A stretch of 40,820 bases of DNA, taken from assembly GCA_017428785.1 (NCBI GenBank), contig JAFRQD010000044.1, positions 1 to 40,820 of the forward strand, written 5' to 3'. The notes under the pieces were generated by a model that worked only from the letters and a program-made list of their open reading frames with translations, was not told the origin of the DNA and did not search any database. Made by a program: the position numbers and the translations under genes. Positions 3,243-10,392 of the stretch are shown here, piece after piece. This DNA comes from Bacteroidaceae bacterium. Lineage in GTDB: Bacteria > Bacteroidota > Bacteroidia > Bacteroidales > Bacteroidaceae. Within the stretch, counting starts at the first letter, position 1. The number at the start of each line of letters is the position of its first letter.

Positions 3243-3776
3243 ATGGACGAGCAGCGACTGATAGCCCGCATCCTTGACGGTCACGAGAGTGATTACGGCT
3301 ATTTCCTGGAGCGATACGGTGGCGAGGTGTTTGCCATCGTGTCGCGTTTGGTGCCGAACCGCGAGGATGCCGAGGAGTTGACGCAGGACGCTTTTGTCCG
3401 TGCTTATAGCCGTCTCGACTCGTTCGTCGGCCGTTCTTCGTTCTCCACATGGGTTTGCCGCATCGCCTACACCACCACCGTCTCGTGGCTCAGGAAGAAG
3501 CGCGTCAAGTATCTCAGCATCGAGGACAGGCCCAACCTGAGCGACGAGGAGGTGGACGAAGTGCTGGACAACGAGAGTCGGCTCGACGAACTTCGAAACG
3601 CCATTGCCCTCTTGAGGCCAGACGAACAGATGCTCCTGGAACTTTACTACTTCGAGAGCCGTCCCATGGCTGACATCGCCTACATTCTCGACGTGGAGCC
3701 AGGCACTATCGCTACGCGTCTGCATCGCATCCGTCGCAAACTTTATTCATTGATGAAACATGGAACAACACAATGA
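3243..3776 (+). CDS. ECF-family RNA polymerase sigma factor
   Basis: A 177-aa protein starting MDEQRLIARILDGHES. Region 2 spans about residues 10-85 and includes REDAEELTQDAFVRAYSRLD and FSTWVCRIAYTTTVSWLRKK. Region 4 spans about 115-170, with RPDEQMLLELYYFESRPMAD, IAYILDVEPGTIATRLHRIR and a closing RKLYSLMK. The length and domain order are normal for sigma-70 ECF factors, which direct RNA polymerase to a small regulon. It overlaps the next gene by 17 nt, the classic arrangement of a sigma factor with a membrane-bound regulator. Confidence 0.9.
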   Translation: MDEQRLIARILDGHESDYGYFLERYGGEVFAIVSRLVPNREDAEELTQDAFVRAYSRLDSFVGRSSFSTWVCRIAYTTTVSWLRKKRVKYLSIEDRPNLSDEEVDEVLDNESRLDELRNAIALLRPDEQMLLELYYFESRPMADIAYILDVEPGTIATRLHRIRRKLYSLMKHGTTQ

Positions 3777-4110
3777 AAGCCGAGCCCTGCGCCAAGCCCT
3801 CGCAGCAAGAGAGCGGCCGAGCCTGCCGTCGAACTTCGCCTACACCACAATGAGGCGGATTCACCTGGAACGACAGAAGAGCGAACGAAGGCAGCGAATC
3901 GTGGCCTTCCTCACCGTCGCAAGCGTCGTCGTCCTTGGCATCGGCGGACTCGTTTATATGTTCGGACAGGCAATCTGGCAGTCGATGGTTGCCATTTCGA
4001 AACGGCCCGAAGACCTCTCACTTGCCCTGCCCACGCTCTTCTGCCTCGCCTTCTTTGCCCTGCTCAACCGCTGGCTGGCCCGTCATTATGTGGGAAGAGA
4101 CAAAACATAA
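3760..4110 (+). CDS. Small membrane protein, candidate anti-sigma/regulatory partner
   Basis: A 116-aa protein. The N-terminal 45 residues are cytoplasmic and Arg-rich (SRALRQALAARERPSLPSNF, then MRRIHLERQKSERRQRIV). Two transmembrane helices follow (VAFLTVASVVVLGIGGLVYM and LSLALPTLFCLAFFALLNRW). It starts 17 nt inside the ECF sigma gene. LPSNFAYTTMRRI resembles the short N-terminal helix found in small Bacteroidetes proteins encoded after ECF sigma factors. An anti-sigma role is inferred from position and topology; no zinc-binding HxxxCxxC motif is present. Confidence 0.6.
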   Translation: MEQHNESRALRQALAARERPSLPSNFAYTTMRRIHLERQKSERRQRIVAFLTVASVVVLGIGGLVYMFGQAIWQSMVAISKRPEDLSLALPTLFCLAFFALLNRWLARHYVGRDKT

Positions 4111-5471: not shown

Positions 5472-5540
5472 TATTTCCATTTCTTAACAACATTATTCAC
5501 GCCGAATTCGGGAGCAGGAGGCAACAACTATTTATGTGGA

Positions 5541-6464
5541 ATGAAAATAAAAAGGACAGACTTTCTCATCAAGTTACATTTTTTGTTTCTGTCTCTACTT
5601 CCCCTCGGAATAATAGCGCAAACACCCTATCGGGTGACGGCACAGAGGGTAAATGTGAGAAGCAAACCTTCAACAAAATCTCTTGTTGTTGGAGTTCTTA
5701 ATCGTGAAGATACTATTTCCGTAATGGAGATAAGTAACGGATGGGCATCTTTTACGTTCAAAGACAATACACGTTATGTGAGTGCATCTTATCTTGAAAA
5801 AGTAGAAGAACCTGAGGAAGAAGAAAAACCAGAAGATATTACGCAATCTGAACCAATAGAAGAAAGTATTAAGCCCACAATCACTCCTTCTGCTGTTCAA
5901 GAACCTAATTCCACAAAGAAGAAACAAAAAAAACGCAGTATTTCTTCTAATGATGGTCAATTACACCTTATCGCAGATATCTTTGGTGGTTATTCCAATT
6001 TTAGATGTGACAGAGTCACGCCTGAACCAGGTATCGGATTCGGATGCGACATAGGCATACAGTGTGACTACAATTGGATTTGGAACAAAATCCCTAATGG
6101 CTTATTTGGCGAATTTACTATTGGATATTCATGTCGTGGCAGTGGTGCTTATCCATTGCATGGAATAGGCGCAAGATTTTTACCTATAGGATATAAATAT
6201 AATCTAAATTCATCATGGGCACTTGCAGGAAAGACAGGTATATATCTTGCCTATCCCTTCTCTGGGATTGAAACTGGTCAACGCTCATATAGCGGTAGTT
6301 TTGACTGTGGAATCTCTATCGCACTTGGAGCAGAATGGAAACGTTTTGGACTAATGGCTTCTTATGAACATGGTTTCACTAATGTTATAACAGGATCTTA
6401 TGTAGATTTATACAATCAGGGAGCCTTTTTAACTTTATCATATAAATTTCTCTCATTCAAATAG
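5541..6464 (+). CDS. Secreted SH3b domain plus outer-membrane beta-barrel protein heading the CXXX operon
   Basis: A 307-aa protein with a signal peptide (KIKRTDFLIKLHFLFLSLLP ... IIAQ). Residues about 30-85 form a bacterial SH3 (SH3b) domain (YRVTAQRVNVRSKPSTKS and onward, GWASFTF, YVSASYL). An acidic, Glu/Pro-rich linker with a Lys cluster (KKKQKKR) spans about 88-135. From about 140 to the end come alternating hydrophobic/aromatic strands closing with LTLSYKFLSFK, typical of outer-membrane beta-barrels with a C-terminal Phe. SH3b domains usually bind peptidoglycan or peptides. It sits 8 nt upstream of the cysteine-rich precursor and shares its low GC, so it is probably co-transcribed and may anchor, receive or transport the product. 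The function is inferred from context. Confidence 0.7.
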   Translation: MKIKRTDFLIKLHFLFLSLLPLGIIAQTPYRVTAQRVNVRSKPSTKSLVVGVLNREDTISVMEISNGWASFTFKDNTRYVSASYLEKVEEPEEEEKPEDITQSEPIEESIKPTITPSAVQEPNSTKKKQKKRSISSNDGQLHLIADIFGGYSNFRCDRVTPEPGIGFGCDIGIQCDYNWIWNKIPNGLFGEFTIGYSCRGSGAYPLHGIGARFLPIGYKYNLNSSWALAGKTGIYLAYPFSGIETGQRSYSGSFDCGISIALGAEWKRFGLMASYEHGFTNVITGSYVDLYNQGAFLTLSYKFLSFK

Positions 6465-6472
6465 TATTTATC

Positions 6473-7219
6473 ATGAACGAAGAATTGTATAACAGAAGAG
6501 CCTTTTTCAAGAAGGCAATTAATAAAAGCTTACCATTTTTAGCTGGAGCTATAGTTGGATCAACACTACTCTCTTGTGATAAAGAAGACTATGCATTAGA
6601 GAGAGTTTTGGATTGTGGAGGTAGTTGTACATCACAATGCAGCAATGGATGCGGAGGTTCATGCTCGTGGAACTCTAGCTCGTCAACCTGTTCATATTGC
6701 GGTAATGGATGTGGTTCATCATGTGCCAATAATTCTACCTCTTCCACATGTACAAGTTGCGGCAATGGATGTGGTTCGTCTTGTGCCAATAATTCTACCT
6801 CTTCCACATGTACAAGTTGTGGCAATGGATGTGGTTCATCATGTGCCAATAATTCAACTTCTTCATATTGTTCTAATTGTGCATCGAACTGCTCATCAAG
6901 ATGTACACAAACCTGTGCTGATGCTTGCAAAGCACAAACATCGCAGGTATGTTCAAATTGTGCGTCAAATTGTAGTTCGGGATGTGGTGGAAGCTGTGAA
7001 ACCAACTGTAGTGGGAATTGTGGTATGCAATGTGCCCAAACCTGTGGTGGTACTTGTCTCAATGATTGTATAGGAAGGTGTAGTCATTATTGTACTAATA
7101 GTTCGTACACCAATACCACATGGTGTGCAGTTTGTGTTTACAACTGCGATTCTTATTGTGCAAACACATGCTCGTTCTATTGCTATTCCACATGTAAAAA
7201 CAATGGTAGAAAGGGATAA
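6473..7219 (+). CDS. Cysteine-rich CXXX-repeat RiPP precursor with Tat-type lipoprotein leader
   Basis: A 248-aa protein. The leader YNRRAFFKKAINKSLPFLAG carries a twin-arginine motif (RRAFF) and a hydrophobic core, then a lipobox STLLSC, so Tat export plus lipidation at Cys is predicted. After about residue 47 the chain is almost only Cys, Gly, Ser, Asn and Thr. Cysteines recur every fourth residue (C-GGS-C-TSQ-C-SNG-C-GGS-C; a later run of more than ten uninterrupted CXXX steps), and most modules begin with a CxxC (CSYC, CTSC, CSNC, CAVC). Three near-identical 20-residue modules are encoded by 60-nt repeats. The neighbouring radical SAM enzyme belongs to the CXXX-repeat target type, so this is its likely substrate. 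Low GC. The 3' end overlaps the maturase by 17 nt. Confidence 0.85.
   Translation: MNEELYNRRAFFKKAINKSLPFLAGAIVGSTLLSCDKEDYALERVLDCGGSCTSQCSNGCGGSCSWNSSSSTCSYCGNGCGSSCANNSTSSTCTSCGNGCGSSCANNSTSSTCTSCGNGCGSSCANNSTSSYCSNCASNCSSRCTQTCADACKAQTSQVCSNCASNCSSGCGGSCETNCSGNCGMQCAQTCGGTCLNDCIGRCSHYCTNSSYTNTTWCAVCVYNCDSYCANTCSFYCYSTCKNNGRKG
6698..6877 (+). repeat. Three 60-nt tandem repeats inside the precursor gene
   Basis: Units 6698-6757, 6758-6817 and 6818-6877 each encode the frame C-GNG-C-GSS-C-ANNSTSS plus CxxC. Differences are few and mostly silent third-position changes, indicating recent duplication and in-frame copy-number change. Confidence 0.9.
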
Positions 7220-8465
7220 TAGAATCAAAGAGAATGATCGAGGTTGGCAAAACGGTATGGCAAAGTCCATCACGTTCATTGTCACGAAGGACTGCCAACT
7301 TGCTTGCAAGTATTGCTACCTTGTCGGCAAGAACTCGAAGGAGCGGATGCTCTGGGAGGTAGCAAAGCAAGCCATTGACTATATCCTCGACCATGAGGAT
7401 GACTTCAAGGAGGAGAGCGTGGTGTGGGACTTCATCGGGGGCGAGCCGTTCCTCGAGATTGACCTCATCGACAAGATTTGCGATTACCTGAAGCAGGAGA
7501 TGTTCCGACGCAATCATCATTGGTTCAACTCCTATCGCTTCTCATTCTCTACGAACGGCATCAACTACGACAGCGAGAAGGTGCAACGCTTCATCAAGAA
7601 GAACTTGAACCACCTCTCCATCGGCATTACTATCGACGGAACACAACGCAAGCACGACCTCAATCGCATCTGGAAGACAAAGGAGATGGAGCAGGGCATC
7701 CAGCCCAAGCCTGAAGAAGAGAAAGGCTCATACAAAGACGTGGTGAGGAACATCCCGCTTTGGCTGGAGCAGTTCCCCAATGCCGGTACGAAGGTGACCA
7801 TCAGTTCGGCAGACATCCCCTACATCAAGGAGAGCGTTCTGCATCTCTACAGCCTTGGCATACACGAGGTGAACATCAACGTCGTCTTCGAGGATGTGTG
7901 GAAGGAAGGCGACGACAAGCTCTTTGAGGAACAGCTGATGCAGTTGGCAGACGCCATCATCGACGGCGGCTATTATCAGGACTATGCCTGTTCGTTCTTC
8001 TCGGAGCATATCGGCAAGCCGCTCGATGCAAAGCTGGACAATCAGAATTGGTGCGGTGCGGGCAAGATGCTCAGCATCGATGCGGCAGGCAACTTCTATC
8101 CTTGTACGCGCTTTGCCGGTTATTCGCTTCGGAGCAAAAAGCCCATCATCATCGGCAACATTCACGATGGCATCGACCAGAACAAACTGCGTCCCTTCCT
8201 GACATTGGACAGGACGACGCAGTCCCCGAAGGAGTGCATCGACTGCGAGGTGGCAAGTGGCTGTGCCTGGTGTCAGGGAGAGAACTACGATGCGGCAGAG
8301 ACGCCGACCATCTACCAAAGGGCGACGGCCATCTGCAAGATGCACAAGGCTCGCGTTCGTGCCAACAACTACTATTGGAACAAGCTTTTCCGTAAACTGG
8401 AGTTGGAGGACGAGCGCGAGGAGTTCGAGAAGAATAAGAAGAAGTCAAACGAAGTAATCTGCTAA
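7203..8465 (+). CDS. Radical SAM peptide maturase, CXXX-repeat target type (SPASM)
   Basis: A 420-aa protein from the ATG at 7203 (MVERDNRIKENDRGWQNGMA); a longer reading from 7125 would run through the precursor and lacks conserved sequence. The radical SAM cluster motif C31-x3-C35-x2-C38 (DCQLACKYCYLVGK) is followed by the glycine-rich DFIGGEPFLE. The C-terminal SPASM region carries many cysteines: NWCGAGKMLSID, YPCTRFAGYS, ECIDCEVASGCAWCQGE and ICKMHKARVRANNYYW. Such enzymes use S-adenosylmethionine and auxiliary FeS clusters to install thioether or related crosslinks on Cys-containing precursors. It starts inside the end of the precursor gene, so the two are translationally coupled. Higher GC than the precursor. 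Confidence 0.9.
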   Translation: MVERDNRIKENDRGWQNGMAKSITFIVTKDCQLACKYCYLVGKNSKERMLWEVAKQAIDYILDHEDDFKEESVVWDFIGGEPFLEIDLIDKICDYLKQEMFRRNHHWFNSYRFSFSTNGINYDSEKVQRFIKKNLNHLSIGITIDGTQRKHDLNRIWKTKEMEQGIQPKPEEEKGSYKDVVRNIPLWLEQFPNAGTKVTISSADIPYIKESVLHLYSLGIHEVNINVVFEDVWKEGDDKLFEEQLMQLADAIIDGGYYQDYACSFFSEHIGKPLDAKLDNQNWCGAGKMLSIDAAGNFYPCTRFAGYSLRSKKPIIIGNIHDGIDQNKLRPFLTLDRTTQSPKECIDCEVASGCAWCQGENYDAAETPTIYQRATAICKMHKARVRANNYYWNKLFRKLELEDEREEFEKNKKKSNEVIC

Positions 8466-8469
8466 AGCT

Positions 8470-9408
8470 ATGCTGCAATACCTTATTATATTATTAGACG
8501 AGGCAAGCACTTCGTTCTGTAGCTATCCTCTCCCCAAAGGGGGAGGCAGGAAGGGGGCTTTGATGCCACTCGAAACCCTAAAACAAGGCATCCGCTTCGG
8601 CATGACGGAGAACCTGATGATTCAGTTTGTCTATCCTGACAAGAAGCTTCCCGATGAGTATGCGGAAGTGATAGAGAGCATCGACCATTCGAAGATAAAA
8701 CCTGTGAAGGATGATGCTGATGTGTGGGTGATGAACGCTCTCGCAGAGGCAGCGCCTGTGGATGTCCCCATCGTACTGAGGATAGGCAAAAAGGAACTCT
8801 TTAACCAAACCGAAAGCGTTTGCAGCCTGCTCGACAAGACACCAAGGCTCAACATCGTGCTGACGGACATTGAGACCTTCACAGAGGAAGACTTCACGGC
8901 ATATAAGGAAGTGCTCGGCAGGCTTTCGCAGAAAGTGGAGCAGATGTACGTGGAGGGCAAGGCACCACAGCTGAACCTGCTCACCGACCGCATGATGCTC
9001 TCGCAGATGAACAACTGCGGAGCCGGCGACGCTTCGGTCACGCTGGCACCCAACGGCAAGTTCTATGTCTGCCCTGCCTTCTATTATGAGGACGAGACAG
9101 ACAGCATCGGTGACCTTGAGCATGGGTTCGACATCAAAAACAGACAGCTCTACAAGCTGGAGTATGCGCCCATCTGCCGCCACTGCGATGCTTTTCAGTG
9201 TAAACGCTGCGTCTGGCTCAACCGCAAGACAACGCTCGAAGTGAACACGCCAAGCCATGAGCAATGTGTGGTGGCGCACTTGGAACGCAACGCTTCGCGA
9301 GTGCTGTTGCAGGACATTCGCAAGCACGGAACATTCCTCCCCGAGCAGAGAGAGATAAAAGAGATAGATTACTTGGACCCCTTTGAAAAAAAAGATACAT
9401 GGCAATGA
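8470..9408 (+). CDS. CXXX-repeat peptide maturase (second SPASM-like protein)
   Basis: A 312-aa protein, MLQYLIILLDEASTSFCSYP. It lacks a CxxxCxxC radical SAM motif but has a SPASM-like cysteine set in the C-terminal half (NNCGAGDASVTLAPNGKFYV, CPAFYYEDE, ICRHCDAFQCKRCVWLN, EQCVVAHLER). This matches the accessory protein that accompanies CXXX-repeat radical SAM enzymes; an FeS-binding partner or precursor-recognition role is likely. It starts 4 nt after the maturase. At residues about 19-32 an extra piece (PLPKGGGRKGALMPLE) is encoded by the GC-rich dispersed repeat at 8524-8564, so the N-terminus has been altered in frame by a mobile repeat. Confidence 0.8.
   Translation: MLQYLIILLDEASTSFCSYPLPKGGGRKGALMPLETLKQGIRFGMTENLMIQFVYPDKKLPDEYAEVIESIDHSKIKPVKDDADVWVMNALAEAAPVDVPIVLRIGKKELFNQTESVCSLLDKTPRLNIVLTDIETFTEEDFTAYKEVLGRLSQKVEQMYVEGKAPQLNLLTDRMMLSQMNNCGAGDASVTLAPNGKFYVCPAFYYEDETDSIGDLEHGFDIKNRQLYKLEYAPICRHCDAFQCKRCVWLNRKTTLEVNTPSHEQCVVAHLERNASRVLLQDIRKHGTFLPEQREIKEIDYLDPFEKKDTWQ
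8524..8564. repeat. GC-rich palindromic repeat inside the CXXX maturase gene
   Basis: CCTCTCCCCAAAGGGGGAGG at 8527-8546 is followed by CAGGAAGGGGGC. It belongs to the same family as the copies at 4373, 4440, 5166 and 40372, and is translated in frame near the N-terminus. Confidence 0.75.
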
Positions 9409-9680
9409 CAAAGAAACCTGTAGGGCAAGTGACACCCGAGGAGCGCAATGAGATTCAGGCGCTCTTCGAACGTCGCAACGGATTGAACGAACTGGCAAAG
9501 ATTGTAACAGCCGACAACACCGAGCTGTATGAGAAACTCGTGAAGGACATGGGCGAAACGGGCACGAAGTTCCAAGGGTGGTGGGACCGCATGGCTGCGA
9601 AGTACCAATGGGAAAGCGCCGATGGTGGCAACTGGGAGATAAACTTCGACTCCTGCGAGATATTCCTGGCGACTCCTTGA
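9399..9680 (+). CDS. CXXX-repeat peptide modification system accessory protein
   Basis: A 93-aa protein, MAMTKKPVGQVTPEERNEIQ, with FERRNGLNELAKIV, an amphipathic middle (YEKLVKDMGETGTKFQGWWD) and an acidic, Trp-containing C-terminus (YQWESADGGNWEINFDS). It is short and soluble, with no cysteine cluster apart from one near the end. It matches the small third protein regularly encoded with CXXX-repeat maturases; the role is unknown, and a peptide chaperone or scaffold is a reasonable guess. It overlaps the upstream gene by 10 nt and is the last gene before a hairpin at 9707. Confidence 0.75.
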   Translation: MAMTKKPVGQVTPEERNEIQALFERRNGLNELAKIVTADNTELYEKLVKDMGETGTKFQGWWDRMAAKYQWESADGGNWEINFDSCEIFLATP

Positions 9681-9849: not shown

Positions 9850-10392
9850 ATGAAAGATCTGAAAGGAACCAAGACGGAGCAGAACCTCAAGGAGGCTTTT
9901 GCCGGAGAGAGCATGGCACGCAACAAGTACAGCTACTTTGCTTCGAAGGCCAAGAAAGACGGCTATGTGCAGATTGCATCTATCTTCGAAGAGACGGCTG
10001 CCAACGAGAAGGAACATGCCAAGATGTGGTACAAGTTGCTGAACGGCGGCAAGGTGATCGACACAAAGACCAACCTTGCCGACGCGGCCAGCGGTGAGAA
10101 CTTCGAGTGGACCGACATGTACGACCGCATGGCAAAAGAGGCTCGCGAGGAAGGTTTCCCTGAGATTGCCGAGAAGTTCGAGCAGGTTGCTGCCATCGAG
10201 AAGCATCATGAGGAGCGTTACCGCAAGCTCCTGAAGAACATCGAGGACGAGATTGTCTTCTCGCGCGAAGGCGACGTCATCTGGCAATGCGCTAACTGCG
10301 GCCACATCGTCGTCGGCAAGAAGGCTCCCGAAGTGTGTCCCGTCTGCGACCATCCACAAAGCTATTTCCAGATTAAGGCTGAGAATTATTAA
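9850..10392 (+). CDS. rbr: Rubrerythrin (peroxide reductase)
   Basis: A 180-aa protein. The N-terminal ferritin-like four-helix domain carries the diiron ligands (E20 in [16 protein letters not shown]53xxH56 in NEKEHAKMW and a later [19 protein letters not shown] helix). The C-terminal rubredoxin-like domain has CANCG and CPVCDHP for an Fe(Cys)4 site. The length and domain order are normal for rubrerythrin, which reduces hydrogen peroxide in anaerobes using electrons passed through the rubredoxin centre. It has its own consensus promoter. The 3' flank begins a GTTGACAAGTTGAC-type repeat that extends into the next gene. Confidence 0.95.

Follow-up and report, generated by a model that had tools for sequence, protein, structure and literature searches.

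A CXXX-repeat radical SAM operon of Bacteroidales whose precursor probably leaves the cell through the Tat pathway

Introduction

How does a long, cysteine-rich substrate of a radical S-adenosylmethionine (SAM) enzyme reach the outside of the cell? This question is raised by a locus of a Bacteroidaceae bacterium (GCA_017428785.1, contig JAFRQD010000044.1), where a gene for a CXXX-repeat precursor of 248 residues lies among genes for a radical SAM maturase and its accessory proteins. The window analysed here, positions 1-40820, is the entire contig (C38) of a genome of 2.98 Mb that is 84% complete. Peptide products of radical SAM enzymes are usually small and exported by ATP-binding cassette (ABC) transporters. 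Our analysis makes it probable that this CXXX-repeat operon yields a product exported by the twin-arginine translocation (Tat) pathway and, in this bacterium, lipidated for the outer surface. The linkage of related loci to tatC and the either/or of ABC exporter and Tat leader are the strongest evidence for the export role of the leader.

Results

The precursor carries a twin-arginine leader

The window cluster consists of five genes, all on the plus strand and arranged head to tail. The genes and the elements within the precursor gene are:

5541..6464, plus strand: SH3/barrel-like companion, 307 aa; SH3_3 match with E 1.9e-10 (residues 36-86), N-terminal signal recognised by eye
6473..7219, plus strand: CXXX-repeat precursor, 248 aa, 44 Cys
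6494..6511, plus strand: twin-arginine motif RRAFFK (residues 8-13), fitting R-R-x-phi-phi
6566..6577, plus strand: lipobox LLSC (residues 32-35), from the sequence
6578..6592, plus strand: DKEDY following the lipobox Cys, matching the lipoprotein export signal C-X-K-(D/E)2-X
6674..6864, plus strand: 60-bp tandem repeat, about three copies, building part of the Cys-rich region
7203..8465, plus strand: radical SAM/SPASM maturase (TIGR04115), 639.3 bits (cut-off 350), E 2.1e-192
8470..9408, plus strand: TIGR04119 partner, 258 bits (cut-off 150)
9399..9680, plus strand: TIGR04116 small protein, 102.4 bits (cut-off 50)

The N-terminal region of the precursor reads MNEELYNRRAFFKKAINKSLPFLAGAIVGSTLLSC-DKEDYA..., with the twin arginines at residues 8-9 and the lipobox Cys at residue 35. 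RRAFF is followed by LPFLAGAIVGSTLLSC, i.e. a hydrophobic stretch and the lipobox, the order expected of a Tat substrate. PMC10924467 gives R-R-x-phi-phi as the minimal motif of this pathway, which transports folded proteins. A 248-residue precursor with RRAFF and a lipobox in its leader, overlapping the radical SAM gene, had been described in an earlier note on this DNA, and the sequence confirms it; the overlap exists with a maturase start at 7203, not with the later in-frame ATG at 7257.

To place this leader in its family we collected related loci with the maturase as search bait, so that every locus has a maturase by construction. The first set of 92 loci comprises 11 from a search of the order, 80 from named genomes and the window, no two of which share a 120-base core; the named-genome scan retained the best 80 of 404 candidates, which biases it towards close relatives. 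A second set of 28 consists of 46 later loci minus 18 exact duplicates. The CXXX system is patchily distributed. With the own genome included each time, it occurs in 42 of 399 genomes from the same family, in 12 of 393 from the order and in 6 of 395 drawn from across the phylum; partial matches in two of the 42 family genomes, G969 and G1164, are outside the locus set. The relatives found are nearly all Bacteroidales, and ruminant origin is common.

In the first 92 loci R-R-x-phi-phi was present in 148 of 159 Cys-periodic open reading frames (ORFs), with the consensus E-L-Q-S-R-R-E-F-F-K-K-A-A-K; precursors were chosen by Cys periodicity, and the motif also fixed the start codon of each ORF. 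By column counts, 143 of these 148 precursors fit the narrower pattern RRxF[FLI], vs 7 of 2695 other ORFs of at least 100 aa that have it within their first 60 residues. Three of the 11 motif-less ORFs come from loci truncated close to the precursor (L027, L062, L075), three look like frames that are open by chance (one in L039, two in L071), and of the other five (L026, L057, L067, one in L071, L081) all but L026 share their locus with a twin-arginine precursor. Altogether, 86 of the 92 loci have such a precursor, and in five of the remaining six the maturase starts less than 600 bp from a contig end, leaving L026 as the sole locus of this set truly without one. The second set gave twin-arginine precursors in 24 loci by a similar filter and in L193 by inspection. 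None was found in L184-L186, which belong to one genus outside the order; the precursors of L185 and L186 are 66-68 aa long and lack the motif, and no recognisable precursor was identified in L184. A search of the own genome for a pattern coding for S-R-R-x-F-F-K gave no match, but it allowed only TCN serine codons and the window motif starts with N, making it uninformative for the window. Judged by its sequence, this leader most likely serves as a Tat signal.

Many relatives encode TatAC beside the maturase

Since TatC is common across the order (329 of 393 genomes, including all 12 with the maturase, 5 of which have a second TatC), we rejected its mere presence as proof of Tat export; the weight is carried by gene linkage and by the split between ABC exporters and Tat leaders. 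A same-strand tatC lies 1.35-3.56 kb beyond the maturase in 65 of the first 92 loci, accompanied by tatA in 64 of the 65. Among the 27 loci without it, 8 are too close to a contig end to tell. In the larger set tatC is linked in 77 of 111 loci with a twin-arginine precursor and in 0 of 5 others. Loci of Leyella stercorea DSM 18206, Xylanibacter rarus and Xylanibacter caecicola have the linked gene, and in the Bacteroides congonensis locus no linked tatC was present within the 9 kb examined.

We then compared 93 TatC sequences in a tree, 64 of the 65 linked copies (the partial one of L073 was omitted) and 29 others, of which 9 came from maturase genomes and 20 were picked from the best-scoring matches listed. 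Fifty-six of the 64 linked TatCs form one clade with a support of 100/99 and no housekeeping TatC inside, and the linked/unlinked label changes 4 times on the tree vs 24.8 times in shuffles. The remaining 8 linked copies fall in three other places, the channel therefore having been recruited more than once or exchanged. From this pattern the operon most likely often encodes a dedicated translocase for the leader-bearing precursor. The single TatC found in the own genome is outside the linked clade; its gene and tatA have the gene of another twin-arginine protein between them. In that region (L123 1993-6576, contig C49) tatC and tatA flank sugar-related genes, the twin-arginine protein scores close to the glycoside 3-dehydrogenase model NF058561 (731.8 vs 750 bits), and the whole looks like a housekeeping Tat operon.

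ABC exporters occur where the twin-arginine precursor is missing

Of 121 loci, five are cut at the precursor (L027, L030, L062, L075, L093) and were excluded; for the rest we tabulated Tat leaders against ABC exporters, which at twin-arginine loci were counted up to 4 kb from the maturase and on its strand, and a TatC piece in frames below 150 codons (L073) was not counted. Each of the 5 loci in which no twin-arginine precursor was found, namely L026, L184-L186 and L146 on its plasmid, has an ABC exporter by its maturase, and 0 of the 111 loci with such a precursor have one. The earlier note had named homologues lacking the twin arginine as a finding that would speak against Tat export. Five such loci exist, and as each has an ABC exporter by its maturase they favour an export role of the leader. 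The proposal of Tat export itself gains strong and general sequence support from the 111 twin-arginine loci, 77 of them with linked tatC; its dependence on Tat we infer.

Two of the ABC loci deserve description. L026 (4076-9588) is a CXXX cluster with maturase and partner as one protein, a precursor close to TIGR04118 (33.4 vs 35 bits), an ABC exporter and, next to it, a protease whose nearest relative is QhpE (E 5.2e-32; 111 bits, below the cut-off of 165). L146 (44-4287) is on plasmid NC_013164.1 of Anaerococcus prevotii, typed as conjugative, and has a short four-Cys ORF, a long CXXX maturase gene and then an ABC exporter; at 2.2 kb the maturase gene is long enough for a maturase-partner fusion as in L026.

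The maturation core is a known CXXX-repeat system

The radical SAM/SPASM gene and the two accessory genes reported in the earlier note are real, with TIGR04115, TIGR04119 and TIGR04116 all passing their curated cut-offs. We classified the system by these three proteins, not by a precursor model; on sequence grounds the core is the CXXX-repeat radical SAM system of NCBIfam and hence not new. CX3CX2C is kept in 12 of 12 aligned maturase rows. The TIGR04119 partner is present in all of the first 92 loci except L047, which ends with its contig, and its AlphaFold2 model resembles 5why (Foldseek E 3.4e-11) and 5wgg, i.e. CteB (1.9e-10). Its alignment has CX3CX2C within the first 150 aa in 0 of 34 rows and eight Cys conserved in 34 of 34, so that by model and cysteines the protein is a predicted pseudo-radical-SAM partner with SPASM-like cysteines and without the SAM-cluster motif. 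The TIGR04116 protein has the fold E-HH-EE (AlphaFold2 mean confidence score, pLDDT, 93), its model matched no PDB entry with an E value of 0.001 or lower, and it is a possible candidate for a leader or client binder.

Variants of the core were seen elsewhere. L223 (6732-9103) and L224 (6481-8909) have tandem copies of the TIGR04115-type maturase, one divergent (441 and 479 bits). In L182 (5436-8990) and L183 (5726-9171), both outside the order, one frame matches the TIGR04119 as well as the TIGR04116 profile.

The cysteines of the precursor are largely but not strictly periodic. Residues 47-248 (202 aa, 43 Cys) contain 30 C-x-x-x-C pairs vs a mean of 8.8 in 5000 shuffles (sd 2.4, max 17), which bears out the cysteines at every fourth residue of the earlier note in the main, with interruptions by Cys gaps of 3, 8, 9 and 11. 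The precursor is below the cut-offs of TIGR04114 (14 vs 20 bits) and TIGR04117 (13.3 vs 50 bits). Eight other precursors were scanned with these two models, of which those of L028, L106, L182 and L088 pass one and those of L220, L046, L185 and L146 neither. Lengths of at least 200 aa were found in 24 of 148 related precursors, and 33 of 86 loci encode at least two precursors, with a maximum of 8 in one locus. Of 2509 CxxxC units, 69% have S, G or T immediately ahead of the second Cys, a position that may mark crosslink acceptors and that we regard as a lead only.

Forty-four cysteines would also suit a metal-binding lipoprotein with free thiolates and few or no thioethers, folded around its metal before Tat export. 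Tat commonly exports cofactor-loaded proteins, and a rubrerythrin gene at 9850 adjoins the cluster, although it is the same neighbour in L028, as flanking synteny. Against free thiolates stands a maturase at every locus, if by design of the search, and the nearest characterised maturase, PapB, is a thioether former (191.6 bits with the PapB model, below its cut-off of 340; E 2e-56). We consider a metal-binding protein unlikely.

Part of a lipobox subtype is preceded by an SH3/barrel-like gene

The lipid anchor proposed in the earlier note is supported for the window precursor, which has the lipobox, the lipoprotein export signal and, in its genome, LspA and Lgt; it does not extend to the family. 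About 45 of the 148 precursors in the first 92 loci have a lipobox, and we rejected it as a family-wide trait. A looser first classifier gave 64, some first core cysteines being mistaken for lipoboxes; the stricter one gave 46, and removal of L036 (189 aa) by eye left 45 for the companion comparison. One hundred precursors were called signal-peptidase-I type by a loose pattern, 2 fit neither class, and for the 28 later loci the lipobox was judged by eye. Lipobox precursors are longer than the others (median 172 aa vs 108.5 aa). At least two acidic residues at positions +2 to +7 were present in 39 of the 46, and C-x-K-(D/E)2 in 14, the window among them. According to PMC5080379, C-X-K-(D/E)2-X is the optimal surface-export motif defined in Capnocytophaga, and the Bacteroides fragilis consensus differs, being SDDDD; the C-D-K-E-D-Y of the window fits the former.

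The companion gene, absent from the description in the earlier note, ends 8 bases ahead of the precursor. The C-terminal region of its product matches OMP_b-brl_2 with 20.5 bits, below the cut-off of 27, and the barrel assignment is weak, as the score is below the Pfam cut-off in the window and in every relative that scores. SH3/barrel-like companions directly precede 14 of 45 lipobox vs 0 of 103 other precursors (p 1e-8; the loci are not independent). We derived the companion set from a blast graph blind to precursor type, 15 of 16 profile matches being its own seeds, and SH3 domains may have merged two kinds of barrel-like proteins in it. Among the later loci L217 and L220 have companion matches, both with a lipobox. 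Motif and gene pairing suggest that the lipobox precursor would reach the surface as a lipoprotein and have a matching partner in the outer membrane.

In L028, of the same genus (a copy is in G1068), flanks and maturation genes are 77-85% identical to the window at the DNA level, no DNA match exists for positions 5524-7251 with companion and precursor, and the precursor lacks a lipobox. L220 is a close match to the window precursor type, with lipobox and companion, and has no tatC in the stretch examined. A different upstream family was seen at 4 loci, including L028 (7878-8423), L047 (7412-8110) and L068 (1044-1640); its L028 member occupies the position of the SH3/barrel-like gene of the window. 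Upstream of the window cluster (3243-4110) are genes for an extracytoplasmic function (ECF) sigma factor and a small membrane-type protein, a region that is probably unrelated to the cluster as it is shared with L028 as flank. The precursors of L182 and L183 are lipobox-like Tat precursors without linked tatC. As these two loci lie outside the order, lipidation may be an old feature.

Discussion

The sequences themselves show which genes are present, the type of leader, the linkage, the split between Tat and ABC loci and the lipobox subtype. Several points weigh against the proposed reading. In the window the 32 kb that follow the maturase contain no tatC, so that a dedicated channel is not part of this locus; contig ends account for only the 8 of the 27 tatC-less loci of the first set, and 4 of the 27 (one also near a contig end) have tatA without tatC. 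Given its frequency in the order, co-occurrence of TatC alone is weak evidence. Loci with lipobox precursors only have tatC in 14 cases and lack it in 10, compared with 47 and 7 for the others (p 0.0075), and the lipidated subtype may, judging from these counts, rely less on a dedicated Tat. The ABC/Tat table is post hoc, as the ABC genes were noticed first and the ABC profile was made from those 5 loci; three of the five belong to one genus, L184 is without an identifiable precursor, the precursor of L146 is a doubtful four-Cys ORF, and flank lengths are unequal. The loci are akin and near-duplicates persist (e.g. L203/L099), so p values exaggerate independence. Finally, the leader could also be a recognition element of the maturase through RR-x-FF-K.

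Taken further, this last point would make RR-x-FF-K only a binding site for the maturase or the TIGR04116 protein, with export by the general secretory (Sec) pathway. RiPP (ribosomally synthesized and post-translationally modified peptide) leaders usually contain a maturase-binding motif, and the conservation of E-L-Q-S-R-R-E-F-F-K-K reaches beyond the positions that Tat requires at a minimum. A binding site alone, however, leaves unexplained the same-strand tatC in 65 of 92 loci, the ABC exporters at the five loci where no twin-arginine precursor was found, and the position of the motif ahead of a hydrophobic stretch and then of either a lipobox or a cleavage site that is only loosely defined. 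We regard it as quite unlikely, and both roles of the motif may be true together. Disulfides formed after export, with radical crosslinking minor, could use the Cys pairs of the exported protein and are very improbable, needing neither the radical SAM enzyme nor the partner present at all loci of the first set but L047, in a habitat that is likely anaerobic.

Export by Tat would proceed as follows. The precursor would be made and, while its leader is held, the maturase, the pseudo-radical-SAM partner and the TIGR04116 protein would form thioethers from the periodic cysteines; thioether formation is suggested by kinship to the thioether formers PapB, CteB and QhpD. The leader, perhaps also the recognition leader, would then act as Tat signal and bring the matured, compact cargo to TatAC, which in many relatives would be that of the operon and in the window genome the housekeeping one. 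Crosslinking and folding before export would fit both the maturase family and Tat, and export solely of matured cargo we infer. Lgt and LspA would lipidate and cleave the precursor at Cys35, and the DKED motif would direct it to the cell surface, beside or with the co-encoded SH3/barrel-like protein; lipidation, surface exposure and this partnership are what the motifs and the gene pairing would predict. Most related precursors, lacking a lipobox, would be cleaved by signal peptidase I.

The window system resembles the NCBIfam CXXX system (TIGR04114/04115/04116/04117/04119) in its three proteins above cut-offs and in Cys mostly at every fourth position, and differs from it, as described in model names and the literature searched, in the Tat leader, the operon tatAC, and the lipobox subtype with its barrel-like gene. 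It also resembles ranthipeptide maturation, PapB (freyrasin) being nearest to the maturase after its own family and the fold of the TIGR04119 partner resembling CteB. PapB is described as forming Cys-Asp and CteB Cys-Thr thioethers. Unlike PapB, the maturase is below the PapB cut-off, and the spacers of the window system are rich in S/G/T, not Asp, and follow a Tat leader. In the Qhp system (QhpC, D, E, F), which matures the gamma subunit of quinohemoprotein amine dehydrogenase, a radical SAM enzyme crosslinks Cys while the protein is still in the cytoplasm, and leader removal and ABC export follow (PMC7876137). L026 with its QhpE-like protease and ABC exporter is similar to this route; the window and 110 other loci, which have a Tat leader and lack an ABC exporter next to the maturase, are not. 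From known Tat-dependent lipoproteins the system differs in having a radical SAM substrate as cargo and, in many relatives, tatAC in the operon. The literature searched contains no natural Tat export of the CXXX system or of radical SAM peptides, although its coverage was partial, the NCBIfam notes on TIGR04114-04119 were outside it and an earlier mention is possible; nisin, according to a review, has been displayed on phage via Tat by engineering. The new part is thus the export arrangement, apparently undescribed, within a known maturation system.

More tentatively, and with somewhat less than even confidence, these loci may represent a class in which the leader is the Tat signal and the operon has its own, separately evolving TatAC, the preference of Tat for folded cargo serving as a quality gate that lets out only crosslinked, rigid chains; part of the class would be lipidated, displayed on the surface and paired with a matching protein of the outer membrane, with cargo and partner swapped jointly as cassettes among relatives. 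The presence of several precursors at a single locus points to a product, on the surface or released, that has diversified and might act in competition or adhesion. If Tat export holds, the family would be a natural system for testing whether crosslinked cargo is sensed by Tat, and surface-displayed crosslinked lipoproteins would be predicted in gut and rumen Bacteroidales.

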